Below, in pieces: positions 122 to 58,904 of a stretch of DNA of 59,006 bases. Made by a program: the position numbers and the translations under genes. This stretch comes from Oscillospiraceae bacterium. Lineage in GTDB: Bacteria; Bacillota; Clostridia; Oscillospirales; WRJC01. The stretch lies in assembly GCA_009780985.1 (NCBI GenBank), contig WQYZ01000005.1:1-59006 (forward strand). The letters are read 5' to 3'. The notes under the pieces were generated by a model. That model saw only the letters and a program-made list of their open reading frames with translations, searched no databases and was not told the DNA's origin. Each line of letters starts with the position of its first letter. Within the stretch, counting starts at the first letter, position 1.

Positions 122-988
122 TTAGGTAGAGTAATAAAAGAGTTTATCGACTAAAAAATGGGAATAAGAAAATTCAAAGAAATTTATGAATAGCCCAATA
201 ACAATATCGTGCATAATTTTAGACTTTGAAAAACAGATGGTCTTTCGTGCGAGCCTCTTGACACGAGTGCGTAAAGTGAGATTTTTGCGTTCAATAGCCT
301 GAGTGTTCTTCTTGGATACAGTATGATTTTCAGGCTCTATGTTGCGCTCATAGCTGCCCCAGTCATCAGTAAAAAACATTGATATGCCAAATGGCTCAGG
401 GAGAGCTTTTATCTCTCTGAACACTCTGTCTTTCCGCTGTCCGAAAGTGTAAGCCGAAACTATATGGGTATTATGGTCAATGGCAAGCGAAACTGAGCTT
501 CGCTCAGTATGCCAACGATGGGTTTTCTTTTTCTGAACGTAACTCCATTGCTCGTCCAGCTCTGCACCGTCCTCACTGTATTGTATTATCTCGACCTCAA
601 TGCCAGATATGTCGTCTATTTGTGTAAGGATACTTGCGATAAATCGACTTTTTCAAAGAAAAAGTCAGATCTATCTGCAAGTTCCTTAAAGGTACTCCAT
701 GTTTACGCGTTGGATGAATGGTTCTGTTTTTTTAAGTGTTCATCACCTTATATGTCGATATTTCCAATACTCTCGCTGTGTCGCGGATTCCGCTCGCGTT
801 GACTGACATTTTTATGATTTCCCGCTCCACTCCTCGCTTACAGCCCCGGTTTTTGTATTCTAACCGGAATATTGTCGTTTTACATTCGACGTTTCTACAG
901 TGATATCTTTGTTCGCCGCTTCTGCTTTTCCCGTATTTTACCACTTCGCTTCCTGCACAATCCGGCATTTCACTTCCATTTTTGCCAT
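122..988 (-). pseudogene. IS1-family transposase remnant (InsA and InsB parts)
   Basis: This is a decayed IS1-type transposase. The InsA-like part (988 to about 733) has a zinc-finger start, GKSRSGEQRYHC, and a helix-turn-helix-like end. The InsB-like part, in another frame, carries LDEQWSYV, HRW and FFTDDWGSY, which resemble the IS1 DDE catalytic region. A one-base loss appears near 970: restoring a C would join ATGGCAAAAATGGAAG to the PDCAGSEV frame and complete a KCPDC zinc motif. The two parts are separated by stops, and no start serves InsB. Two short palindromes lie inside (487-503 and 646-666), the second containing a stop in the InsB frame. I could not define the terminal inverted repeats. 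Family assignment is by motif recognition. Confidence 0.75.
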
Positions 989-45409: not shown

Positions 45410-45466
45410 GCGGAACTTTTTTAAAATTCAAGTACTACGTGCTTAGAATTTTCTATCAAGTTCCGC
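45410..45466. repeat. Palindromic element, 57 bp, overlapping capsid stop
   Basis: Arms GCGGAACTT and AAGTTCCGC enclose further pairs (AAAATTC/GAATTTT and AAG/CTT). The capsid stop codon (45456-45458) lies inside and the last Thr codon derives from it. A stretch TTTTTAGATTTTTCTAA at 45384-45400 is identical to part of the copy at 55595-55653. Confidence 0.65.
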
Positions 45467-46727
45467 TTGCCGCACCCTTTTTTATAAGCAATACAGAACC
45501 GACATCGCCCATCTTACCGTCGCATATCAATATAGCTTTGTCAACGTACTGATTTGTGTCCTCGTCGAGCCACCTGACCATACGCATTTCGAGGTTGCTG
45601 TTTATGACATAATCGGACGGCTTGAAATATATGCCGACAACATCGTCCGTGGCAGCTGTGTCATAATCCGGTATTATATCGTTTTCAACCAGAACAACCC
45701 GCGTGCCGCCGAAACTCATGCCGATTGTCGAACCGTCTATACCGTAGTTCACACGCCCGATAGGCTGACCGTTGTCATCGACCATGCCGTCGATATACCC
45801 GTCAAACGTGCCTTTCGAGAACACAAATATGCCGTTGGTATAAGATAACGGTATTTTCGCAAACACTTTCTTTTTCCATGCCGACCACGAAATAAAATCG
45901 GCGGGTATGACTGTTAATTTCTGTCCTGCCGACACGCGCGTCTCTTTCAGTATGCCGAGCGGCTGACCTGAACCCGTCCCGCTTATCACAGCCTTGTCTA
46001 TAGCGAACAGCATGGCTTCCACTATGATTGACGTGATTTCCATCTCGAACATCGTGAGCGAAGCGTACTGCGTGATGAGCGACTGCGCGACTTTGCACTC
46101 AAGCCCGAAATATGTGAACGTGATTTTTGTATTCGCCTGTAATTTCTGTCTGTCGCTGCCGACTCCTTCGCCTATCCACTTGGCTTCCGGCTTGACAGTC
46201 AGTATAGGAATCTGAACGCCGCCCGCAATGTTGAGTTTGCGCACCAATGAAAATATAGTGCCGCGCACTTTTATTTCTTTGATGATTTCGTTCAGAATCG
46301 TAGTAGGAATGACCGCGCTCGCGTCCGTGCTTGACGTGAACACGTCCGCTCTTGATTCTTTATCAGGCTTTAAAACGTCGCTGAGTTCTCCTGTCTGCAT
46401 AAATCTCATGAACGCTTGCCGATATTCGGCAGTGTCACGTTTATCAATAACCTCTGTATTTTTTGAATCGGCATTATTTCCTGTGAGAGCCGATTTAAAA
46501 TTTTGTGCTCTTTTTTCGCCATCCTGCGGATTCGGGTTATTGTCTTTGTCAGCCGGAGGTGTATTACCAGCCTGAGCAGCCGCCTCTAATGCTCTTGCCT
46601 CTGTTATTTGACGGTCGAGTTTTTCAATCTCGACATCGACGGCGCGGATTTCCTCGACCGTTTTGCAACCATCGTATTTCGCGAACGCCTGCGCCCGTAA
46701 TTCTAATAATTCTTTTAACGTTTTCAT
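45456..46727 (-). CDS. Major capsid protein (HK97 fold)
   Basis: This 423-residue protein has an N-terminal delta/scaffold coiled coil (LLELRAQAFAKYDGCKTVEE to about residue 105). The HK97-fold shell follows with ASAVIPTTILNEIIKEIKVR, VAQSLITQYASLTMFEMEIT, KAVISGTGSGQPLGILKETR and DEDTNQYVDKAILICDGK. The protease gene directly upstream should remove the delta domain during maturation, probably near residue 105-120. The last residues (SGT, stop) come from a palindromic element. Confidence 0.95.
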   Translation of the reverse strand: MKTLKELLELRAQAFAKYDGCKTVEEIRAVDVEIEKLDRQITEARALEAAAQAGNTPPADKDNNPNPQDGEKRAQNFKSALTGNNADSKNTEVIDKRDTAEYRQAFMRFMQTGELSDVLKPDKESRADVFTSSTDASAVIPTTILNEIIKEIKVRGTIFSLVRKLNIAGGVQIPILTVKPEAKWIGEGVGSDRQKLQANTKITFTYFGLECKVAQSLITQYASLTMFEMEITSIIVEAMLFAIDKAVISGTGSGQPLGILKETRVSAGQKLTVIPADFISWSAWKKKVFAKIPLSYTNGIFVFSKGTFDGYIDGMVDDNGQPIGRVNYGIDGSTIGMSFGGTRVVLVENDIIPDYDTAATDDVVGIYFKPSDYVINSNLEMRMVRWLDEDTNQYVDKAILICDGKMGDVGSVLLIKKGAASGT

Positions 46728-46743
46728 AAAAATTATATCTCCT

Positions 46744-47385
46744 CTAAATTTTATATTTCGCCTTACTTTTGGCGAGTTCTATACTCAAATCCAAACCGCT
46801 GTTTTGTCTGAAATCCTTTTTCGCTCTCTCCAGAACGTCCCTCATGGTATCCACCACTCCGGAAGAATCAGAAACAGAACTCGCCGCCTGAACGTCGGTA
46901 GCTTTGTATGCGGGGAAATTTACTGCGCTAACTTCGAAAACTTTTTCAATTTTCAGAATCGTGCGCTTGGGATAGTCAGTATTCAAATCCGACCACTTTT
47001 CCTCTTTAACCGAAAACATGAAAGACATTCCATTCATATCTCCGCGCTTTACGGAAGAGTAAACGGATTTGGATTCAAGATTGTTTTCTACATCCAGATT
47101 TGCGGATATATACAACCCCACTCCGTCAATTTTTATAGTCATAGTGCTGTTTCCGTTGTTACGGCGCGACCGAGCCAACGGCGTGCCTCTGGTATCGTGG
47201 TTTTTGAACAAAGGCACGTCAGACAAATCACTTTCGTCGAACGCGCCCCTCGCGATAGTTTCTTCCCACCAGCCGCCGATGTCCGCTTTACTGTCAAAAA
47301 CAGCGGCGTGTCCGGTGATAGTCCCGTTTTCTTCAGATTTTAAGTCCTGCATATTAAATGAACGCAATTCTTTATTACTGTTCAT
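46744..47385 (-). CDS. HK97-family prohead protease
   Basis: This 213-residue serine protease (U35 family) processes the capsid during prohead maturation. TGHAAVFDSKADIGGWWEET, IARGAFDESD, FKNHDTRGTPLARSR (catalytic His) and GDMNGMSFMFSV (catalytic Ser) are in order. FEVSAVNFPAYKAT near the end is also conserved. It overlaps the portal gene by 11 bases and precedes the capsid gene by 16 bases. Confidence 0.92.
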   Translation of the reverse strand: MNSNKELRSFNMQDLKSEENGTITGHAAVFDSKADIGGWWEETIARGAFDESDLSDVPLFKNHDTRGTPLARSRRNNGNSTMTIKIDGVGLYISANLDVENNLESKSVYSSVKRGDMNGMSFMFSVKEEKWSDLNTDYPKRTILKIEKVFEVSAVNFPAYKATDVQAASSVSDSSGVVDTMRDVLERAKKDFRQNSGLDLSIELAKSKAKYKI

Positions 47386-48556
47386 TTGGTGTAACCCCCT
47401 TTTTCGTTAATTGGTATTTATCTATAATATCTGTGCTGATATAATTCAAACTGATATAACGTTTCGCGCCGAGTTCCCCGCCTACCGGAGGATAGCCGAG
47501 AAGTTCAAGCTGCTGATCCACAGTCAGTAAACCCCGCTGCCCGGCAATATCAAGAATATTCACTCTTGTTTTCAAACTCGTCTGAAGCGTGAACCGACTG
47601 AAAAATTTTATTTTGTTCCCGTGATACAACTCGTTCGTCGTAAATAACACTTTCGTAAACGCGTTCGATAATGCAATCGCCAATGGTTCTATTGTAGCGT
47701 TGTAAAAAGCCTCGTGTTCCTCATCGGTAGCGGAGCCGTTTAAAACAGGTTCAGATAACCCATACCAGCGAATTATTTTTTTATCAATGTATTCGATTGT
47801 ATCTTTGTCGACGAGTTTCGGGTCCGGCTTCAGCTGCACATATGTCTCAGCAAGATCGGTGATTATGATACCGTTTGAATTTTTCAGTTGCTTTTCAAAC
47901 TCTTTCCGTCTCTCAGTTTTTTTATCCTCGTCAAGCAGATTATCTTCTTTCAGAAGCCCGTACACCTGTAATCCGACCTCGACAGCCTTTCCAAGTCCCC
48001 GCTCTATCTTCGACGATGTCTCCAGCGTCGATAACAATGGCTTGTTGTCAAGCGTACCAAGATAATCGTTGAGGGAATAATTCAGCCGCAGATGTATTAT
48101 ATTTTCATACGGTATTGTGATGTTATAATCCTTAAAATCTAAATAGACATACAAATACCCGCTCCCGTCCTCTTTAATATCAACTCCGGACGGATTCAGC
48201 GGGTATAATGCTTCAAGCCTGTTATTCTCATATAACGGATAAATATACACATTATTGTTTATCAGCAGATTATTTATAACCTTGTATATAAAGTCATTGG
48301 GAGTCATAATCGGACTGGGCGCGAACTCAAAAAGATAATTCAATCGGCTTTGTGGCGTGTACTGTATTCCGTCTTTGACAAAAATATGCTTAGGTATCAG
48401 CTTACTGCACTCCGTCGCTATTTTGTTTATGCAGGTTCGCACCGTTATATTAGCCATCGGATCAGAACCGAAAGATTTAATCCAATCGCCGAATTTAAAA
48501 TCTTTATATGTCTGCTTATGTATTTTTTTATTTTTCAGCTTGTCGAGCCACTTCAT
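47375..48556 (-). CDS. Phage portal protein
   Basis: This 393-residue portal protein of the HK97 type forms the 12-subunit channel for DNA entry. Signatures include VRTCINKIATECSKLIPKH, LNYLFEFAPSPIMTPNDFIY, NNLLINNNVYIYPLYENNRL, LYPLNPSGVDI and VPEPVLNG-type segment GLSEPVLNGSATDEEHEAFY. It starts 18 bases after TerL on the same strand. Confidence 0.92.
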   Translation of the reverse strand: MKWLDKLKNKKIHKQTYKDFKFGDWIKSFGSDPMANITVRTCINKIATECSKLIPKHIFVKDGIQYTPQSRLNYLFEFAPSPIMTPNDFIYKVINNLLINNNVYIYPLYENNRLEALYPLNPSGVDIKEDGSGYLYVYLDFKDYNITIPYENIIHLRLNYSLNDYLGTLDNKPLLSTLETSSKIERGLGKAVEVGLQVYGLLKEDNLLDEDKKTERRKEFEKQLKNSNGIIITDLAETYVQLKPDPKLVDKDTIEYIDKKIIRWYGLSEPVLNGSATDEEHEAFYNATIEPLAIALSNAFTKVLFTTNELYHGNKIKFFSRFTLQTSLKTRVNILDIAGQRGLLTVDQQLELLGYPPVGGELGAKRYISLNYISTDIIDKYQLTKKGVTPNEQ

Positions 48557-48574
48557 ATTTTTTTCCTCGAATTT

Positions 48575-50305
48575 TTATAAATAATTTCTGAATTCCATCT
48601 GATACTTCTCCATAAGCGCATAGCAAATAATAAGCGTCAGCGTGCCGTCGATTTTCAGATCAACCCTGCCGTTCGCTTTCACAGGCTTTATGTACCCGTC
48701 GCTGTCAACCTCAATAGCCGTGTTGCTGAAACAAAATTTGTCTATCGGGTGTCCGTTATAATTTATAAGCTGTGACTTGAAATCATTTTCCACGCTCGTC
48801 ATCGGGGAAGTCAAAACCCTCTTGTCCATCTGTACCGCTTCAAAATCGATTTTATATGTTTTCTTGAAAGACTCCATAAATCCCCTCGTATTGATTTGCC
48901 ACCTGTCGAATCCTATGCGGAACATTCGCAACCCGTATTTACGTATTTGATTGACAAACCAGTCCTCGATTTTCGACTGCTCGTTTTCGTTGCCCTCCGA
49001 TATTTCGAGAAGTCCCTGACTGTTCCATTCGGCGAACCGGGCTTTTTCCTCTTCCGTGCCCATCGACAGCCGTATGCGCGGAATGAAATATCTCTGTAAA
49101 ATATATTTATTATTGTCGTCCGGATGCATACATAAAATCTTTGCGCTTGCAAGGTCGCCCACAAGCGCAAAATCTATCGCCCCGACGCAGATACAGCCTT
49201 TTATAAATTCCGGAGCGAACGACGCTTCATAAGCAAAATCGTCAGTGTTAAGCCACGCTTCCGCACTGTTCATATGGAAGTTGAAATCTTTCGTGAGAAC
49301 CATAACGCGTTCCTTTTTGCTTTTTCGCGCAAGCTCTACCTGTTCGCGCATATACTGGAGCGACTTAACTTCACCGAGTGACGGATTACTTTTCTGCCAC
49401 GAATTTTCATCAGTCCATATTTCCTGTTCGCTGTCCTGCTCGTAGAGCCAAACAGAGTAGTACGGCTCGTCGCGTTCGCCGTCGAGTATCTCACGGCAAC
49501 GTTTCAGCTCCTCGTCGAGAAAACCGTCGTTGACATATCCTTCAGTAGTTATAATAGAAAGAAGCCGCTGCGGATTATTTGACATTGATTGTTCTATCGC
49601 TTTGACAAGCGTCGCGGTCATCATTTCGTGAACCTCATCCAAAACAGCCCAACCGATGACGCGTCCCTCTTTTTTACGCTGATTGTCGGTCATTTTCCGT
49701 ATGGTGTTATAATTAGTTTTATGCCATATACCGCGCAAATTAATATGTGTCAGCTCCTCCAGATCCCTGACCCAGCCGATCATAGACTTCACTTCCGTGT
49801 GTACTAAATCAGCCTGCGCCGCGTCGTTGGACGCGTTGAATATATCGATGCCTCCGGAGCCAAGAAAAAACTCCTCTGCTTCCTCAGCTGCCAGTTCTGT
49901 AGTTTTACCGTTTTTTCTCGCCACGAGAAGCAGGGACCGCGTGAATACTTTTTTGCCCGTATCCCTATACCGCATGGACAGCAGACATTCATACCGCGCT
50001 TTCTGCCATAGCATAGCCTCAAACGGCTGCCCGGTAAACGGAGCTTTTGTGTGCTTGATGAACCGTTTACGGAACGCGATTTTCAAATCGAATTCCGAAG
50101 TATCATAAATATATTTTTTATCGGCAATCATGTTCTGCATCCGCCGCAATTCTTTTCTAAGCGAATCGCAGACCAATATATTGCCAGATTTAATCTCGCT
50201 CATATACCGTTTAAGATAATTCGTCGGTATCGCCCGCCCTTTTTTTATTTTTCTTGAATTCGTCCAAAAATTTTTCGATATTATTTTTGTCCTTCTTATC
50301 GTCAC
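48575..50305 (-). CDS. terL: Terminase large subunit
   Basis: This protein of up to 576 residues packages phage DNA. The ATPase domain has a Walker-A-like ARKNGKT at residues 129-135 and AVLDEVHEMMTATLVKAIEQ (Walker B plus catalytic Glu). The C-terminal nuclease domain starts near CVGAIDFALVGDLASAKIL, with the metal-binding Asp. The start is uncertain. The only usable codon before the conserved YLKRYMSEI region is GTG 50305, deep inside terS; ATG 50203 would cut that region. It overlaps terS by about 95 bases if the long start is used. Confidence 0.93.
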   Translation of the reverse strand: MTIRRTKIISKNFWTNSRKIKKGRAIPTNYLKRYMSEIKSGNILVCDSLRKELRRMQNMIADKKYIYDTSEFDLKIAFRKRFIKHTKAPFTGQPFEAMLWQKARYECLLSMRYRDTGKKVFTRSLLLVARKNGKTTELAAEEAEEFFLGSGGIDIFNASNDAAQADLVHTEVKSMIGWVRDLEELTHINLRGIWHKTNYNTIRKMTDNQRKKEGRVIGWAVLDEVHEMMTATLVKAIEQSMSNNPQRLLSIITTEGYVNDGFLDEELKRCREILDGERDEPYYSVWLYEQDSEQEIWTDENSWQKSNPSLGEVKSLQYMREQVELARKSKKERVMVLTKDFNFHMNSAEAWLNTDDFAYEASFAPEFIKGCICVGAIDFALVGDLASAKILCMHPDDNNKYILQRYFIPRIRLSMGTEEEKARFAEWNSQGLLEISEGNENEQSKIEDWFVNQIRKYGLRMFRIGFDRWQINTRGFMESFKKTYKIDFEAVQMDKRVLTSPMTSVENDFKSQLINYNGHPIDKFCFSNTAIEVDSDGYIKPVKANGRVDLKIDGTLTLIICYALMEKYQMEFRNYL

Positions 50306-50606
50306 TTTTCATTTTCAGAACTATATTCATAAGCAGGGATGCGGTCTTGTTGCACCCGTCCGCCGCTTTGTGATATTCCGCGACTGCCGGATGAACATAT
50401 ATATTTTCACGTCCTTTTACATATTCTTTTGTGACTAAAATCCCTTCGTTTTCTATCACTTTTTTCAAATCGTTCAGAATATTCAGCTGCATCAGATAAT
50501 GCTCAAAAGTCGTGGTAAAAAGGAAGTTTTTCTCAACTCCGTATTTCTTTGCGAGCGTCACGAACCTTTTTGCCTGCGCATCCACTTTAGCCATGTTTGC
50601 TTCCAT
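50211..50606 (-). CDS. terS: Terminase small subunit (P27 family)
   Basis: This 131-residue protein of the P27-type small terminase group has AKRFVTLAKKYGVEKNFLF, TFEHYLMQLNILNDLKKVIE, GILVTKEYVKGRENIYVHPA and EYHKAADGCNKTASLLMNIV. Small terminases recognise the pac or cos site and recruit TerL. ATG 50606 with a GAGG site is preferred over 50654. The C-terminus is Lys/Asp-rich. It overlaps terL. Confidence 0.85.
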   Translation of the reverse strand: MEANMAKVDAQAKRFVTLAKKYGVEKNFLFTTTFEHYLMQLNILNDLKKVIENEGILVTKEYVKGRENIYVHPAVAEYHKAADGCNKTASLLMNIVLKMKSDDKKDKNNIEKFLDEFKKNKKRAGDTDELS

Positions 50607-50699
50607 TTTATCGCCTCTTTTTGCAAAACTTTTCCCTCGTTCGCCTCTTTCCAAAAAAACATAGAAATTTTCGTGCGCGTGGCATGACAGGATCCGCTA

Positions 50700-51473
50700 T
50701 CAGCATTCAGGGCTCTGTGCAAATTCTCGGTCGGGGGGTGGGTTTAAAGCATAATTTGTTTCGCAGATGAAATTTTTATTGACATTAAACCAATCCGAAA
50801 TAAATTTTTTCCACATATCTTTATCCCTTCCGCTTGTGTCTGACTTAAGCCGTGCAAGACATTCCTCTTCGCTCGATTCTATTATGACAAGCTCCGCCGA
50901 CATCTGTTTGGCTAATCGTTCAAGCTCCGCAATCGGTCGCCCGCTTATGATATAGCTGTCGTGATGTTTACCAGCTCGCGTCCGTATCATATCGTATAAC
51001 GTATCGCGGACCGCAAACACGGCGGCAGTAAGCTCTGCCGGCTTATCATATAACGGATTGACGCTTAACGCCTGAAATATTTTATCTAAATCTACTATCA
51101 AATCAAATCCGGTCGCAGCGTCTTGCACATATGTCGTCTTGCCGCTCATCGGCGCGCCCGCAATGATATATACTTTGCGTTCAAGTTTTATCTGCCTTTT
51201 TTCCTCAAGATAATTTTCAAATCGGTCGTGAACTTTATTGTGACAGTCCGCACATATAACCTGCAGATTATCCCTGCCATATACTATGTCAGGGTTGCTT
51301 ATATTAATCTCATTGAGTTCAGACTTATGATGTACCCGCAGATACGAGCTGTCACACATTTTCCCGCATAATTCGCAGATACCGTTTGCCTCATGAATAA
51401 GCTGTAATCTATACCGCTGCCATTTGCGTGAAGCATAAATTTGTTTGCCAGGCGTTTCATATATTTTTTCCAT
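50700..51473 (-). CDS. HNH endonuclease fused to a P-loop ATPase-like domain
   Basis: This 257-residue two-domain protein has an N-terminal HNH nuclease (ICELCGKMC, then LRVHHKSEL, NLQVICADCHNKVH), with two CxxC zinc pairs and the HH/H catalytic set at residues 36-83. A P-loop NTPase begins near residue 100 with IIAGAPMSGKTTYVQDAA (GxPxSGKT), and has a kinase-like end. Terminase-adjacent HNH nucleases act in DNA packaging of HK97-like phages; the role of the P-loop part is unknown. It lies between terS and the DNA methylase. Confidence 0.85.
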   Translation of the reverse strand: MEKIYETPGKQIYASRKWQRYRLQLIHEANGICELCGKMCDSSYLRVHHKSELNEINISNPDIVYGRDNLQVICADCHNKVHDRFENYLEEKRQIKLERKVYIIAGAPMSGKTTYVQDAATGFDLIVDLDKIFQALSVNPLYDKPAELTAAVFAVRDTLYDMIRTRAGKHHDSYIISGRPIAELERLAKQMSAELVIIESSEEECLARLKSDTSGRDKDMWKKFISDWFNVNKNFICETNYALNPPPDREFAQSPEC

Positions 51474-51474
51474 A

Positions 51475-52341
51475 TCAGAAATTTACCCAGACAAATTCTT
51501 GCTTTCTTATTCGACTTTCGCCGATTTTCATATTAAGCGTAACCGACACATTCCCTAAACTTATTTTTCTCCAGCCGGCGTCAACGAGTCTATTATACAA
51601 AACCGTATCATATCCGCTCAATATTACCTTGCCTTTTATGCCGATAAGTATATCCACAAGCTGTATATGATCGGTCTCGTTCATTTCATTTTTATAGATT
51701 TTTCTGCATGAACGATTATCCCACGCATACGGAGGATCTAAATAAAACAACGTATCAGGTCTGTCGTATCTTTTTATGATGTATCTGAAATCGCTGTTCT
51801 CTAACTGAATATTTTTCAGCCTGTCACAGGCGGCGTTCAACAATTCTTTTGAGTTGTGAAAAGAAGATGCGGTTTTACTACTTTTCAAATCCACGCCCCA
51901 TGTCTCGCCCATACTGCCGAATGATTGTCTGTTTACAACCGCGAAACAATATGCTCGTTCTATAGTTGAACTTGTTGAAATGCCGAACGCGTTCGGCGGG
52001 ACAACTTCGTTGTCAGAATTTTCTATCAAGTTCAACTTAGTTATGTCGTCACATGTGAGAAGATACAGGCATTTATTGAACGTATCCCTCGAATACGGAG
52101 TCGCCGCCAACATATCATAAATAATGCCGCATTTCGATTTGTCTTTGACCGATGAAAAGAAACATACAAGATTCCTGTCTATATCGTTATATATTTCACA
52201 GGCTGACACAGGTTTTTTAAATAGAATGTGTCCGGCGCCGCCGAACACTTCAACGTATAATGTATGCTCCGGAAATAAACTTATTATTTTATCCGCTAAG
52301 TGAAATTTCCCGCCCGGATAACTTATTGGTGATTTCGACAT
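51475..52341 (-). CDS. DNA adenine methylase (D12 class) with in-frame repeat insertion
   Basis: This 288-residue N6-adenine methyltransferase of the Dam/D12 class has SPISYPGGKFHLADKIISLF and YVEVFGGAGHILFKKP (SAM motif F-x-G-x-G), then YLDPPYAWDN (catalytic DPPY, about residue 201). FAVVNRQSFGSMGETWG is also typical. Between CLYLLTCDDIT and RAYCFAVVNRQ it carries about 24 extra residues (KLNLIENSDNEVVPP...AFGISTSSTI) encoded by a 72-bp palindromic element. Length is otherwise normal, so activity is plausible. No cognate restriction enzyme is seen; protection of phage DNA is likely. Confidence 0.88.
   Translation of the reverse strand: MSKSPISYPGGKFHLADKIISLFPEHTLYVEVFGGAGHILFKKPVSACEIYNDIDRNLVCFFSSVKDKSKCGIIYDMLAATPYSRDTFNKCLYLLTCDDITKLNLIENSDNEVVPPNAFGISTSSTIERAYCFAVVNRQSFGSMGETWGVDLKSSKTASSFHNSKELLNAACDRLKNIQLENSDFRYIIKRYDRPDTLFYLDPPYAWDNRSCRKIYKNEMNETDHIQLVDILIGIKGKVILSGYDTVLYNRLVDAGWRKISLGNVSVTLNMKIGESRIRKQEFVWVNF
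51965..52036. repeat. Palindromic element, 72 bp, inserted in frame in the DNA methylase
   Basis: Terminal arms GTTGAACTTG (51965-51974) and CAAGTTCAAC (52027-52036) are perfect. Two inner hairpins, GCCGAACGCGTTCGGC and GACAACTTCGTTGTC, lie between. The length of 72 bases keeps the frame and adds 24 codons. No clear target duplication was seen. Confidence 0.75.
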
Positions 52342-52410
52342 TTTTTATAACCTCCGAAATTTTTGACTTATTTTATTTATAATTCTTTTCTTTTGTTTCC
52401 TTGTTTTTAA

Positions 52411-52446
52411 AACGAAAACGGTCCTCACAACGAGAACCGCTTCGTT
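52411..52446 (-). terminator. Terminator-like hairpin after the sigma-like gene
   Basis: Arms 52411-52426 and 52431-52446 pair well (AACGAA...CGGTTCTC with GAGGACCG...TTCGTT on the minus strand) and are followed by TTTTAAAAAC. It lies in the gap 52342-52524 between the methylase and the regulator; the rest of the gap shows nothing. Confidence 0.55.
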
Positions 52447-52524
52447 TAATCTATTATTGACTTTACACATTATATCACAAAATATGGTCGCACTACTCCG
52501 AAGTTGATTGAAATAATAAAAATT

Positions 52525-52995
52525 CTATAATCTCAGTCCCCGCTCGATTGCGAAAATCATTCTCGCTTTCGAGAGATAAAGATAAACCGTGCTTTCCGCC
52601 GCCGGAATATATATCCCTGCTTTATGTACCCTATCCTGTATATCACCGCGCTCAATCGGTTTATCGACTTCACCGCCGAACTCGTTCGGCATATATACTA
52701 TCTCCAACGCCTTGCGAATATATGTGCCGTTGTCATACTTTGCGATTATATCGAGCGTGCGCTCAACCGCTTCTAAATCCGCGACAGCCGCATAAGCGTT
52801 GTCTATAGCACTCTGCGCCCGCATTATATCCGCTTCTACAGGATTCGAGATTCCAACGCTTTTTTCGCCGGAATATTTATGATTTGCCAGAGCGTCGTCC
52901 CACAATTTATCTTTATACTTTTTTACTCCGCCGACTGACTTATAAAATCTGAACGCCGCTATCGCATAGTCTCTAATATGGTCTTTCTTCCTCAT
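52525..52995 (-). CDS. Phage sigma-like/late regulator (ArpU-RinA type)
   Basis: This 156-residue protein resembles phage transcription regulators of the ArpU/RinA/DUF1492 group that turn on packaging and late genes. RDYAIAAFRFYKSVGGVKKY opens it. The end, AGIYIPAAESTVYLYLSKAR, is a sigma region-4-like helix-turn-helix. A palindrome in the middle encodes YMPNEFGGE and may be an insertion. ATG 52995 has GAGGGG 10 bases upstream; GTG 53013 is less likely. It stands where such regulators are expected, just before the packaging genes. Confidence 0.65.
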   Translation of the reverse strand: MRKKDHIRDYAIAAFRFYKSVGGVKKYKDKLWDDALANHKYSGEKSVGISNPVEADIMRAQSAIDNAYAAVADLEAVERTLDIIAKYDNGTYIRKALEIVYMPNEFGGEVDKPIERGDIQDRVHKAGIYIPAAESTVYLYLSKARMIFAIERGLRL

Positions 52996-53013
52996 TTTCG
53001 CACTTCCCCTCAC

Positions 53014-53042
53014 TTGATTTTTTTACCGGATTATATTATAAT
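53014..53042 (+). promoter_or_regulatory. Promoter TTGATT-17-TATAAT for a small RNA
   Basis: TTGATT (53014-53019) and TATAAT (53037-53042) with 17-base spacing face opposite to the lytic genes. A similar pattern precedes both RNAs at 55.1 and 55.4 kb. Confidence 0.5.
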
Positions 53043-53048
53043 ATGACA

Positions 53049-53108
53049 AACAATAGACATTTCAAGCGAGGATAAAAGATTGGAGCTGGGTATACTCCAG
53101 TCTTTTTA
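53049..53108 (+). ncRNA. Predicted small RNA of about 60 nt
   Basis: A consensus promoter at 53014-53042 is followed by a hairpin, GATTGGAG (53078-53085) and CTCCAGTC (53095-53102) with one mismatch, then TTTTT. The transcript would lie in the 5' region of the sigma-like gene on the opposite strand. No coding potential beyond a 10-codon frame is seen. Function unknown. Confidence 0.45.
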
Positions 53109-53312
53109 TTTTTCGCCATCCCCTTCATTCATCACTTCGATGTTTGCGAGCAAACAGTCCAGCCCGTCGTAGAAGCCATGCCAATACCGCCACTGGTATT
53201 CGTCCGCCGACATCGCATAATGATTTTTTCTTTTTTCTGCATAGTCTCTTTTGACTGTTATCAACTCCATTATTTTATCCGCAAAAGTATCAGGACTCTT
53301 TTCTGCTGCCAC
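53106..53312 (-). CDS. Hypothetical small phage protein
   Basis: This 68-residue protein is of unknown function. EKSPDTFADKIMELITVKRD and the Tyr/Trp-rich DEYQWRYWHGFYDGLDCLLA are predicted helical. It overlaps the preceding gene by 23 bases, as early phage genes often do. Confidence 0.55.
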   Translation of the reverse strand: MAAEKSPDTFADKIMELITVKRDYAEKRKNHYAMSADEYQWRYWHGFYDGLDCLLANIEVMNEGDGEK

Positions 53313-53559
53313 TTTTTACCACCCCCATATAATCCAGTATCGCCTCAACAGATTCGCGAACATCACGGAATACTCCTACTGCATACTTTTGCGCACGAAG
53401 ACTTTCTATGAGTAAAATTGTTTCGTAATCAATATTTCGGTTTTCAGTGAATATAATATACAGCCCGATATACGCCCCTGATATTTCCGGCAGATAGAAA
53501 AATGTCGTTCCGCTTATCTGTCGTTTTTCCAGATTTTTAAACACGTCCAAATCAACCAC
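53290..53559 (-). CDS. Small phage protein, possibly degenerate VRR-NUC type
   Basis: This 89-residue protein ends with IESLRAQKYAVGVFRDVRES and VEAILDYMG, like the C-terminal segment of VRR-NUC nucleases. The first part, GAYIGLYIIFTENRN, could be the core strand, but the catalytic Asp/Glu-x-Lys residues are not convincing. VRR-NUC proteins are common at this location in phage genomes. I regard the identity as tentative. It overlaps the replication gene by eight bases. Confidence 0.5.
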   Translation of the reverse strand: MVDLDVFKNLEKRQISGTTFFYLPEISGAYIGLYIIFTENRNIDYETILLIESLRAQKYAVGVFRDVRESVEAILDYMGVVKSGSRKES

Positions 53560-54577
53560 TGCTTTTTCTCGCCTCTCTTTTTACTTCTTTTTCAAAAAAA
53601 TTATCTACATCAAAATTTTCGTCGTTTTCTGAATCACCATTTGAACCGTTAGATAATTTATACCACCCGTTTTGTTGACATCTGTAAAACCAGCCGAATA
53701 TAAACTGTGTTATATCGTCAACTTTAAATACTCCTTTGACGTCGCTGTCAAGCCATTTTTGTATTTTTTTTATAACTTTGTTGAAATCCGTGTCCGGAAA
53801 TGACTCTCTCAATCCCGCCGCATATTTCTGTGTGAGGATAAAAGCCGACTCCTGCTTTCTGCCTCTGTTCAATATCAGTTCTCCTGCAGGGTCAAACCAG
53901 TTTAAAGTATTATTTTCATCTTCCGTTTTTTTATTAACCAGTTCTTTACTAATCAGCCCTCTTGAGTTTTCCACAGTTTCCACAGGGGTAGCGCCGCTAC
54001 TCTGCTCTACTATGCTATTCTCTACTATGCTATGCTCTTCTATTCTATTCTCTTCTATTCTATGCGTCCAAAACTCGGGTTTAATTTCATTTACCCCGTG
54101 TTTAATCAGATTTCCCTCGTGGTTTTCGGTAAAAAAAACGAGTTTATTAAGGACTTTCTCTGGTAATTCCTCAAAATCTTCATGACTGCATACAATATAT
54201 CTTTCGTCAATCAGAATTGTTTCCCTCTCGATACAAGCCCTCATATATGTTGTTTGTATTCGTCGCGACGTCAGGATTTTATCCCTGTTAAAAAGTGTGC
54301 CGTCAAACAGTGACCTCTTAACAAAGAGCCCCAGCATCTCCTTAATTGCTTCTTCCGTCAAACCGTATTCAGCGGCTAACGACAACTCCTTGTCTTCATT
54401 CCATTCACAGTAATATCCTTTTTCCTGATATATGAATACGCCTATAATATGTAGATATACGAGCTTCGGCATTTTATTTCCGATTTTATAACATACATAC
54501 TTAAGTTTTTCGTCTGTGAAAAAACCTACATCTAAGGGAAATCTGTCAAGCTTGCCCTGCTTTTTAATGTTTGCCAT
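53552..54577 (-). CDS. Phage replication protein with DUF4373/Lin1244-like N-terminus
   Basis: This 341-residue protein is probably a replisome organiser. The N-terminal domain (FPLDVGFFTDEKLKYVCYK, LHIIGVFIYQEKGYYCEW, LTEEAIKEMLGLFVKRSLFD) matches the Lin1244/Lin1753-like (DUF4373) pattern. A short repetitive linker follows (RIEENRIEEHSIVENSIVEQ) at about residues 168-190. The C-terminal part (KYAAGLRESFPDTDFNKVIK) is DnaD-like and helical. It lies early in the minus-strand operon, so recruiting host helicase to the phage origin is likely. Confidence 0.7.
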   Translation of the reverse strand: MANIKKQGKLDRFPLDVGFFTDEKLKYVCYKIGNKMPKLVYLHIIGVFIYQEKGYYCEWNEDKELSLAAEYGLTEEAIKEMLGLFVKRSLFDGTLFNRDKILTSRRIQTTYMRACIERETILIDERYIVCSHEDFEELPEKVLNKLVFFTENHEGNLIKHGVNEIKPEFWTHRIEENRIEEHSIVENSIVEQSSGATPVETVENSRGLISKELVNKKTEDENNTLNWFDPAGELILNRGRKQESAFILTQKYAAGLRESFPDTDFNKVIKKIQKWLDSDVKGVFKVDDITQFIFGWFYRCQQNGWYKLSNGSNGDSENDENFDVDNFFEKEVKREARKSSG

Positions 54578-54598
54578 ACGACAGACCTCACCTTTACT

Positions 54599-54672
54599 CT
54601 GAACTTGATAGAAAAATCTAAAAATTGAAAATATGCTGAGTACGCTCAGCGAGATTTTCTCAACAAGTTCAG
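54599..54672. repeat. Palindromic element, 74 bp, intergenic
   Basis: Ends CTGAACTTG (54599-54607) and CAAGTTCAG (54664-54672), followed inwards by ATAGAAAAATCT and with an inner hairpin GCTGAGTACGCTCAGC. Lies just upstream of the replication gene. Confidence 0.7.
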
Positions 54673-54711
54673 CTTTTATTAAATTTTTATGGAATCATAA
54701 ATAAATTAAAT

Positions 54712-54918
54712 TTATCGCGCTTCATCTTCATCTGAACTATAAACGTCTACAGAAATTATGCTCAATGGATTTATCCACGAAGCCGCTCTATTTTCGGGAT
54801 TATATATCTCGAAAAAATTATCTCCGTTGACAGTATTTCTGAATCGCTCCCTGTCCCCGTCGTATTCCCAGTTGCAGTAACAGTCTTTAACTGTGTTTAT
54901 CTGCTTGATTTTGTACAT
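54712..54918 (-). CDS. Hypothetical small phage protein
   Basis: This 68-residue protein is of unknown function, acidic at the end (DVYSSDEDEAR). CYCNWEYDGDRERFRNTVNG and ENRAASWINPLSIISVDVYS suggest a small beta domain. A GGTGAG ribosome site precedes it. It is flanked on both sides by palindromic elements. Confidence 0.5.
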   Translation of the reverse strand: MYKIKQINTVKDCYCNWEYDGDRERFRNTVNGDNFFEIYNPENRAASWINPLSIISVDVYSSDEDEAR

Positions 54919-54938
54919 TTTCTCACCTACTCTCCATG

Positions 54939-54996
54939 CTGAACTTGATAGAAAAATCTAAAAATTAAAAATTTTTGATTTTTCAACAAGTTCAGC
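54939..54996. repeat. Palindromic element, 58 bp, intergenic
   Basis: Ends GCTGAACTTG (54939-54948) and CAAGTTCAGC (54987-54996). The left arm and next 16 bases are identical to those of the copy at 54599, including GATAGAAAAATCTAAAAATT. Confidence 0.75.
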
Positions 54997-55032
54997 GTAT
55001 ATTAATTTTCTGTGAATTATTCATGCCTATAC

Positions 55033-55061
55033 TTGATTGTTTTTTCTTGATATGGTATAAT
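55033..55061 (+). promoter_or_regulatory. Promoter of small RNA 1
   Basis: TTGATT (55033-55038), 17 bases, TATAAT (55056-55061), plus strand, opposite to the lytic genes. Confidence 0.6.
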
Positions 55062-55067
55062 AAAATA

Positions 55068-55190
55068 ATGAAGGTAATAGGCGCAGCCTATTTTCATATG
55101 GCAATAAAAATAATATAATGCTGCTGCGTGTATGATGTTATTTATTTGCCGTCCGCTCCGTGATATGGTGGTACATGTCACGGAGCTTTT
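55068..55190 (+). ncRNA. Predicted small RNA 1 (about 120 nt)
   Basis: A consensus promoter is followed by a hairpin (AATAGGC gca GCCTATT, 55075-55091). A 12-base stem with one G.U comes next (GCTCCGTGATAT from 55155, closing at 55186), then TTTT. The 3' half is alike to that of small RNA 2 (GTTATTT..., CGTGATAT..., GGGGC/GGAGC then T's). Only a 16-codon frame starting at the predicted transcription start is present. Function unknown; antisense or leader roles are possible. Confidence 0.5.
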
Positions 55191-55192
55191 AT

Positions 55193-55270
55193 GTTGAACG
55201 CGCTGGTAAATTCCCAAACTATGCCGAGCACGCTCGGCGGTGAGTTTGTCGAATTTACCGCATATTCAAC
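55193..55270. repeat. Palindromic element, 78 bp, intergenic
   Basis: Ends GTTGAA (55193-55198) and TTCAAC (55265-55270), then GGTAAATTC/GAATTTACC, CAAACT/AGTTTG and the core GCCGAGCACGCTCGGC. It is a more diverged relative of the other elements, with base changes on both arms that keep pairing. Confidence 0.6.
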
Positions 55271-55348
55271 TTCCCCCTATCCACGCTTATATAAATTCTT
55301 CAAATTTGCTTAATTTACATTAACATTCTGTTAATTATGCAAATTTGC

Positions 55349-55378
55349 TTGATTTTTTGTGTGTAATTTTGATATAAT
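55349..55378 (+). promoter_or_regulatory. Promoter and operator-like sites of small RNA 2
   Basis: TTGATT (55349-55354), 18 bases, TATAAT (55373-55378). Just upstream are the perfect palindrome GCAAATTTGC (55339-55348), a second AAATTTGCTT at 55302-55311, and ATTAAC/GTTAAT (55319-55335), which look like regulator sites. Confidence 0.5.
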
Positions 55379-55384
55379 TTATGG

Positions 55385-55493
55385 TAGGGATTTTTTCCAA
55401 AAATGAGCTGTAGAAAATGATTCGCTTTCCGGGCATTTTGTTATTTGTCAGCTCTGCCTCGTGATATATCGTTAGTATATCATGGGGCTTTTT
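55385..55493 (+). ncRNA. Predicted small RNA 2 (about 110 nt)
   Basis: The transcript would end at a 13-base stem with two G.U pairs (GCCTCGTGATATA, 55456-55468; closing at 55488) and TTTTT, an intrinsic terminator. It is tandem to small RNA 1 and similar in its 3' half and promoter. No protein-coding frame beyond about 10 codons was seen. Confidence 0.5.
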
Positions 55494-55594
55494 CTATATT
55501 TGAGCCTTTTCATTTTTCTACAACCCGCTTTTTATTTATTTTATTTTTGTTTTTATATGAGATCCTGATTTTCTTTAAACAATTATTTTTTCCT

Positions 55595-55653
55595 GTTGAA
55601 CTTTTTGAAAAATCAAAAATCTTTGATTTTTAGATTTTTCTAACAAGTTCAAC
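55595..55653. repeat. Palindromic element, 59 bp, forming a gene's 3' end
   Basis: Ends GTTGAACTT and AAGTTCAAC. On the minus strand it reads GTTGAACTTGTTAGAAAAAT, encoding VELVRK, then Ile and the stop of the gene at 55630-55944. Confidence 0.7.
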
Positions 55654-55944
55654 CTGTTTATCCGAAATAATAATTATCTCACCTGAACGGTAATCGTAGG
55701 ATATTATTTCGCTATTTCCATTTTTGTGTTTTATCAGTCTGCAATATGTACCGTTTTCATAATATTCTTTTATAGTCTTAGCATACGGCGCATATTTACA
55801 TAAAAATTCTGCGGTCGCTTGCTGTCCTGTTTCCCAAATTTCAGAGGCTATTTCACGGATTTTCTCAAAAGCGAAAGTCCCGGCTTTAGTGTAGGGAATT
55901 ATTATTTTATTGGTTTCTATTTTTAAGTTTGCCGGTATTTCCAC
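55630..55944 (-). CDS. Hypothetical phage protein ending in a palindromic element
   Basis: This 104-residue protein follows the Cro-like regulator by 15 bases. IIPYTKAGTFAFEKIREIAS and ATAEFLCKYAPYAKTIKEYY are helical; RLIKHKNGNSEIISYDYRSG is strand-rich. The last residues VELVRKI and the stop codon come from the repeat at 55595-55653, so the original end was probably different. Function unknown. Confidence 0.6.
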   Translation of the reverse strand: MEIPANLKIETNKIIIPYTKAGTFAFEKIREIASEIWETGQQATAEFLCKYAPYAKTIKEYYENGTYCRLIKHKNGNSEIISYDYRSGEIIIISDKQVELVRKI

Positions 55945-57785: not shown

Positions 57786-58904
57786 ATGAAAAAAGCGGCA
57801 TTATATATTCGCGTTTCCACACAAGAACAGGCTTTGGAGGGTTATTCCATCGGAGCGCAAAAAGACAGACTTATAAATTATTGCAAAGCTCACGATTGGA
57901 TAATATCTGACATATATGTAGACGGCGGTTATTCAGGGTCTAATTTAAACCGCCCAGGTATCCAAAAATTAATCGAAGAAATTGATAAAACAGACATAGT
58001 TCTTGTATATAAATTAGACAGACTCTCACGTTCTCAAAAAGATATGTTGCATTTAATTGAGGATATATTTCTACCGTCTAATGTGGATTTTGTTTCTATG
58101 AACGAGAGTTTTGATACAAGCACTCCGTTCGGTCGGGCTATGATTGGAATTTTGTCTGTATTTGCTCAACTCGAACGTGAACAGATAAAAGAACGCTCAC
58201 TCATGGGACGTAATGAACGGGCAAAAGAAGGGCTGTTTCATGGCGGACCGTTTTATCCTATCGGCTATGATTATATAGACGGTCGTCTTGTTATAAACGA
58301 GTACGAGGCGGCACAGATACGTAAAATTTATGATTGGTACATCGGGGGACTGTCCCCTCGCAAAATCTCGGAGCGGCTTCGTGCTGAGGGTTATACAAAC
58401 AAATACGGCAGTTGGAAAAGTGAATCTTCAATAATAAGCGTACTGACAACCGACGTTTATTTAGGAACGATAAAGTATAATGATGTCGTTAAAGAAAATG
58501 CCCACGAACCTATAATAAGCCATGAATTATTTGAAAAAGTTGCATTGGAAAGGAAAAAACGCCGTAAAAAATACGGCGATTCCGCTTATAAAAGTAATTA
58601 TTTGTTGCAGGGATTATTGTTTTGCGGAAAATGCGGGGCGCGATATTATATAAAACATAATTATGGAATTTATAAATATTATACCTGCTATTCGAGAGGA
58701 AAAACTGCGCCGCATCTTATAAAAGACCCGAATTGTAATAATAGAAACTGGCATATACCCGAATTAGAAAAAATAGTTGAAGATGAAATATGCCGTTTAG
58801 CGTTTGACCCTTTTTATTTTAAAAGCCTGACGCAAAAAAAAGAACTTTCGTCTAAAAATAAGTTAAAAGACGAGGAAACTATTATTAATCTAAATAACCA
58901 GTAA
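57786..58904 (+). CDS. Serine recombinase (prophage integrase), C-terminally short
   Basis: This 372-residue site-specific recombinase has the resolvase catalytic domain (AALYIRVSTQEQALEGYSIG with catalytic Ser, YKLDRLSRSQKDM, GILSVFAQLEREQIKERS). A recombinase domain (GGLSPRKISERLRAEGYTNK) and a zinc ribbon (LLFCGKCGARYYIKHNYGIY, with YTCYSR and NCNNRNWH) follow. Large serine integrases usually have 450-550 residues with a coiled coil and further C-terminal part; here the protein ends KLKDEETIINLNNQ, at the start of the coiled coil. It probably inserted this prophage, but may now be defective. GAGG precedes the ATG. Confidence 0.85.
   Translation: MKKAALYIRVSTQEQALEGYSIGAQKDRLINYCKAHDWIISDIYVDGGYSGSNLNRPGIQKLIEEIDKTDIVLVYKLDRLSRSQKDMLHLIEDIFLPSNVDFVSMNESFDTSTPFGRAMIGILSVFAQLEREQIKERSLMGRNERAKEGLFHGGPFYPIGYDYIDGRLVINEYEAAQIRKIYDWYIGGLSPRKISERLRAEGYTNKYGSWKSESSIISVLTTDVYLGTIKYNDVVKENAHEPIISHELFEKVALERKKRRKKYGDSAYKSNYLLQGLLFCGKCGARYYIKHNYGIYKYYTCYSRGKTAPHLIKDPNCNNRNWHIPELEKIVEDEICRLAFDPFYFKSLTQKKELSSKNKLKDEETIINLNNQ

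Follow-up and report, generated by a model that had tools for sequence, protein, structure and literature searches.

The window analyzed here (the whole stretch of 59,006 bp, contig 5 of a 387-contig, 4.9-Mb assembly) includes a prophage in which six short palindromic elements lie dispersed, and their presence raises the question of whether they are a structure that the phage uses or mobile DNA that has spread into it. The preliminary description allowed for both. The six related elements are real, all of them lying at or within 1 bp of where it had placed them and sharing sequence and structure, but the family is not a prophage feature; it is genome-wide, with about 65 copies, and use by the phage is unlikely. 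The other half of that proposal, small non-autonomous mobile elements, is supported, as described below, by sites found empty, by copies inserted in frame or nested in one another, and by how widely the family is dispersed. The best explanation, to which we give a probability of about 0.86, is a selfish, non-autonomous family of mobile hairpins of about 60 bp that has dispersed over one Oscillospiraceae genome and the prophages in it.

Covariance model R2, built from 12 sequences that all lie outside the window, recovered the six elements and a seventh in the 59-kb window with E values from 2.1e-13 to 0.003, and the best remaining match there had E = 0.46. A 57 bp subfamily 1 copy (45410–45466, minus strand; R1 65.6 bits, R2 21.2 bits) is located at the 3′ end of the phage capsid gene, whose TGA stop codon comes from its arm, and the relatives of this capsid protein finish in KKGAVSGT*. 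A 72 bp subfamily 1 copy (51965–52036, minus strand; R1 46.3 bits, R2 26.6 bits) lies in frame within the gene for a D12-class phage adenine methyltransferase (51475–52341, minus strand; PF02086, E 1.9e-19), and a 59 bp subfamily 1 copy (55595–55653, minus strand; R1 78.0 bits, R2 52.6 bits) overlaps the 3′ end of ORF 55630–55944(−). The copy at 55193–55270 (plus strand) is subfamily 2-like, GTTGAACGCGCTGGTAAATTC..GAATTTACCGCATATTCAAC; it was left out when R2 was built and scores 43.5 bits with that model (E 1.1e-9). Two subfamily 1 copies on the plus strand are intergenic: one of 76 bp (54598–54673; R1 41.3 bits, R2 31.3 bits) whose tip holds an additional hairpin, GCTGAGTACGCTCAGC, and a canonical one of 59 bp (54938–54996; R1 87.0 bits, R2 56.5 bits). 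The seventh, more diverged copy (626–687, minus strand; R1 31.5 bits, R2 25.8 bits) is within a 97-aa ORF, 509–802(+), that has no Pfam match; it sits in the host part of the window, where the preliminary description had seen no full copies. The window also encodes a large serine recombinase at 57786–58904(+) (PF00239, PF07508, PF13408), which is probably the prophage integrase and has no evident tie to the palindromes.

A core GCCGArC..GyTCGGC had been thought to be common to several of the elements. It is present, but it is a distinct palindrome of 16–20 bp nested in the tips of the 51965 copy (as GCCGAACGCGTTCGGC, 51982–51997) and the 55193 copy (as GCCGAGCACGCTCGGC, 55223–55238). Its exact form GCCGARCNNGYTCGGC has 15 sites in the genome (reversed control, 0). 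This mini-palindrome also nests in the tips of unrelated hairpins beyond these two, as if loops were its preferred target; apart from the two window positions, its places are L046, L047, L050, L053, L054, L027:280 and L272:2830. The form ATGCCGAACnnGTTCGGCGG (16–20 bp) is found in several unrelated hairpin tips and has copies in two viral contigs, and the form GCCGAACTCGTTCGGC is also present at 52675–52690 of the window, inside ORF 52525–53013(−), which has no Pfam match.

In its canonical form the main family is a hairpin of 59–61 bp. It has two stems that covary, an internal loop (ATA/AA) that is conserved and a bulged T; the majority of copies measure 59 or 61 bp. Subfamily 1 reads NNT-GAACTTG-ATA-GAAAAwTC-T-rA..tip..ty-GAwTTTTC-AA-CAAGTTC-ANN and has all of these parts; subfamily 2 reads GCTGAAyATGC-T-CGAAAAwTC..GAwTTTTCG-GCATrTTCAGC and has a single bulged T. 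The elements are under hairpin-structure constraint: in subfamily 1, 97.3% of 550 cells are paired, whereas shuffles reach 84.9% and slid versions no more than 57%, and there are 68 double-change cells where shuffles give 22.8. The outer three pairs are complementary in 60/65, 61/65 and 62/65 copies and the next position outward in only 13/65, so the ends of the element are sharp. Copies are found nested within one another. No two host copies are identical, so movement in this genome may not have been recent. The flanks are AT-rich, with an A at left position −2 in 41 of 65 copies.

Within the genome, the 18-mer GAACTTGATAGAAAANNC has 23 sites (reversed control, 0), and the places that covariance models R1 and R2 identify are mostly shared, at least about 65 among the best 150 candidates scored. 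On the phage side of the search that the preliminary description had advised, R1 gave nothing convincing in 79 related phage contigs. R1 also found no copy in 294 other genomes of the order (best 18 candidates per genome, stricter filters), neither R1 nor R2 matches over its full length in genus mates G001 and G002, where one partial R2 match was seen (G002, E = 0.0125), and the exact two-ended pattern has no match in 84,980 species genomes, a set that may exclude the window's own genome. Two other metagenomes supply independent copies outside this genome, in three viral contigs; contig 2820551407_000007, also viral, matches the prophage of the window at 100%, being the same one, and was kept out of the independent evidence. 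The host genome was covered by searches and by the stretches around elements. One such stretch, a VapE-domain region that is perhaps a phage satellite (L096, G000:C156:1-10000), has a FuFi-1 RNA at 776–987(−) and five copies of the family in 10 kb.

The closest named relatives of the host are Oscillospiraceae MAGs. Emb289 is a sample name in a termite-gut MAG study (PMC7024585), which makes a termite-gut origin of the lineage likely. The assembly is itself a MAG with an estimated contamination of 6.16%, and its 4.9 Mb, compared with 2.0 and 2.6 Mb in the two genus mates, may reflect genuine expansion of the genome or else a mixed bin. The copies in or beside prs, aroA and rplK are associated with genes that have close orthologs in the relatives, which argues that, in spite of the contamination estimate, these copies are native to the lineage.

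That the elements are insertions is seen from sites that lack them. The preliminary description reasoned that ordinary terminators would be conserved at the same sites in all relatives, and it suggested looking for empty sites and target duplications. At every site examined, relatives or paralogs are without the element. The prs gene has a 60-bp in-frame insert (20 aa) that two relatives, 79% and 67% identical, do not have, and aroA has one of 57 bp (19 aa) that neither G295 nor genus mate G002 (74% identity) carries; both inserts are also missing in the PDB homologs of the two products. A DarG-like macro-domain gene (L108:1457-2602, minus strand; G000:C249) has a 20-aa in-frame insert that four homologs lack, the methyltransferase of the window has one of 24 aa that five phage methyltransferases lack, and an IS200-type transposase gene carries two in-frame copies that are missing in its paralogs. 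In the nusG-rplK spacer there is a copy here, and G001 and G002 have native spacers without a hairpin. The relatives are 67–89% identical at the compared sites, so the exact junctions are uncertain by a few bases. Target duplications were not found: direct repeats at the element ends are as frequent as expected from shuffling. Thus, the elements are genome-wide insertions into AT-rich targets that make no target duplication. The homologs of the macro-domain gene are encoded beside DUF4433 genes, and it therefore resembles the antitoxin component of a toxin-antitoxin pair of the DarTG type.

All six verified in-gene copies are in frame and free of stop codons. The route by which these copies were discovered favors open frames, and for this reason no probability is put on all six being in frame. 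The phase that reads xNLIE(N/K)S is open in 38 of 65 copies, compared with about 15% in shuffles, and two phases of the opposite strand are also often open. Four of the six (prs, the methyltransferase, the macro-domain gene and the second IS200 copy) have the same orientation and use the xNLIE(N/K)S phase, and the aroA copy and the other IS200 copy are read from the opposite strand. Translational bypassing was considered, but with none of the verified in-gene copies shifting the frame or containing a stop, it is not needed.

The outermost pairs behave differently from the core. They differ between copies by about 48% at every core distance and so vary independently of the core; in the cleanest case two viral contigs have an identical 53-nt core with ends AAT/ATT in one and ACT/AGT in the other. 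Insertion into the center of palindromic targets of 4 or 6 bp would produce paired ends, but the empty sites of prs and aroA contradict this origin; there the outer ends are part of the insert and not of the target. Each of these two inserts also seems to include an additional base on its 3′ side that pairs with the native base on the left, although two cases are a small basis for any conclusion.

Could the same observations be had without mobility? Hairpins with an RNA function (terminators, attenuators or processing sites) that the host or the phage retains to regulate genes would show the strong covariation and would account for the many intergenic copies near gene ends, but this is very unlikely to be the explanation when six verified copies lie in frame within coding sequence and relatives have the same sites without elements; moreover, no Rfam family matches the elements, the copies have no conserved T-run at their 3′ ends, and no downstream site was found conserved at the same gene in relatives as for an intrinsic terminator. 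Least credible is local template switching at quasi-palindromes, which would create or perfect palindromes in place. Such maintenance has been proposed for the nematomorph mitochondrial coding palindromes (PMC6649704), which resemble the present family in being tolerated in coding sequence with arms kept complementary, but which are perfect repeats with no common sequence family and are not shown as mobile inserts. It fits a tip and outer pairs that vary freely yet remain complementary, and it may contribute to the paired ends; however, it cannot explain how one invariant 34-nt sequence came to lie at about 65 sites, the empty sites reveal whole inserts, and its correction would remove the internal loop and bulged T, yet both stay imperfect.

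Among mobile elements, the bacterial MITEs RUP, Correia/NEMIS and ERIC (PMC2229807) are likewise small, non-autonomous and hairpin-forming and are sometimes in frame in genes, and the present elements are non-autonomous, dispersed inverted repeats as MITEs are. A classical MITE moved by a DDE transposase with target-site duplication, which the small size, terminal inverted repeats and AT-rich targets would suit, nevertheless has very little chance of being correct, given that duplications do not exceed the shuffled expectation and that all of the element forms one covarying hairpin, whose outermost pairs vary where the terminal inverted repeats of MITEs are fixed. REPs of the GTAG and CGTC families are also short imperfect hairpins in many copies, some of them within genes, that may be moved by tyrosine transposases (PMC3733652), and this genome has a RAYT-like gene (C67:20755; NF047646, 76.7 bits, just below the curated cut-off of 80). 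A REP family moved by that gene is improbable all the same: the flank composition of 65 copies shows no GTAG or CGTC tag beside the hairpin, the element is about twice as long as a REP, and no family copy or other RAYT association was found near the gene, which instead carries two GTAGGGGCGGATTC-type REPs of another family. These are two in-frame GTAGGGGCGGATTC..GAATCCGCCCCTAC hairpins at about 2710–2900 of L132 (G000:C67:18000-21223), and they are a separate GTAG-type REP family of this genome.

For the selfish hairpin family, the mobilizing enzyme would be supplied in trans. IS200/IS605 transposases, which are HUH-type enzymes, recognize single-stranded hairpins. The imperfect loop and bulge that have been kept, the AT-rich targets and the missing target duplication fit such recognition. 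A transposase acting in this way would recognize the hairpin, with its conserved internal loop and bulge, as single-stranded DNA and insert it into AT-rich sequence; our tentative best guess for the enzyme is an IS200/IS605-type Y1 transposase. The genome has seven Y1 transposase loci, and at three of these a family copy lies no more than 1.3 kb away, in one case inside the gene itself, but mobile regions may simply collect more insertions, and none of the seven has the clean flanks or arrangement of an autonomous element. More speculatively, and doubtful as it is, the movement could be single-stranded with the outer 2–3 bp appearing to be reset at each insertion and then transferred to the opposite end as the hairpin primes its own copying; renewal of one end followed by fill-in copying would explain ends that vary independently and are complementary without target duplication. 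Since some reading phases of the hairpin are open more often than not, a gene that receives a copy would merely gain about 20 residues, and the copy would persist there.

Rickettsia offers the best-known examples of coding palindromes in frame, and some intragenic REPs are known elsewhere. The family described here resembles the Rickettsia palindromic elements (RPEs), as these are portrayed in two reviews (PMC2229807, PMC10969869, citing Ogata et al. 2000, 2002), in that both are palindromes dispersed between and within genes, both occur in frame in conserved housekeeping genes and are missing in orthologs (here in prs, aroA and the macro-domain, methyltransferase and IS200 genes), both carry an open frame, and neither has an identified transposase. 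On the other hand, RPEs are 105–150 bp long and the present elements about 60 bp (mostly 59–61 bp), the hosts are Rickettsia and an Oscillospiraceae-related bacterium, respectively, the present family has its own sequence and internal loop, and the arms of RPEs reportedly lose their identity with time (PMC6649704) whereas covariation is retained here. With gene-level behavior as in RPEs, another size, host and sequence, and no REP tag, the family is new and its kind is known; the best reading is a new family that is unrelated to RPEs and RPE-like in behavior, set apart from them on the basis of their published description.

An unrelated family in Clostridia that does the same as the Rickettsia elements points to a general way for proteins to acquire inserts of about 20 residues, one that reaches even essential genes, here prs and aroA, without a frame break. 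The paired, independently varying ends are a testable clue to how such hairpins move, including those of the Rickettsia type.
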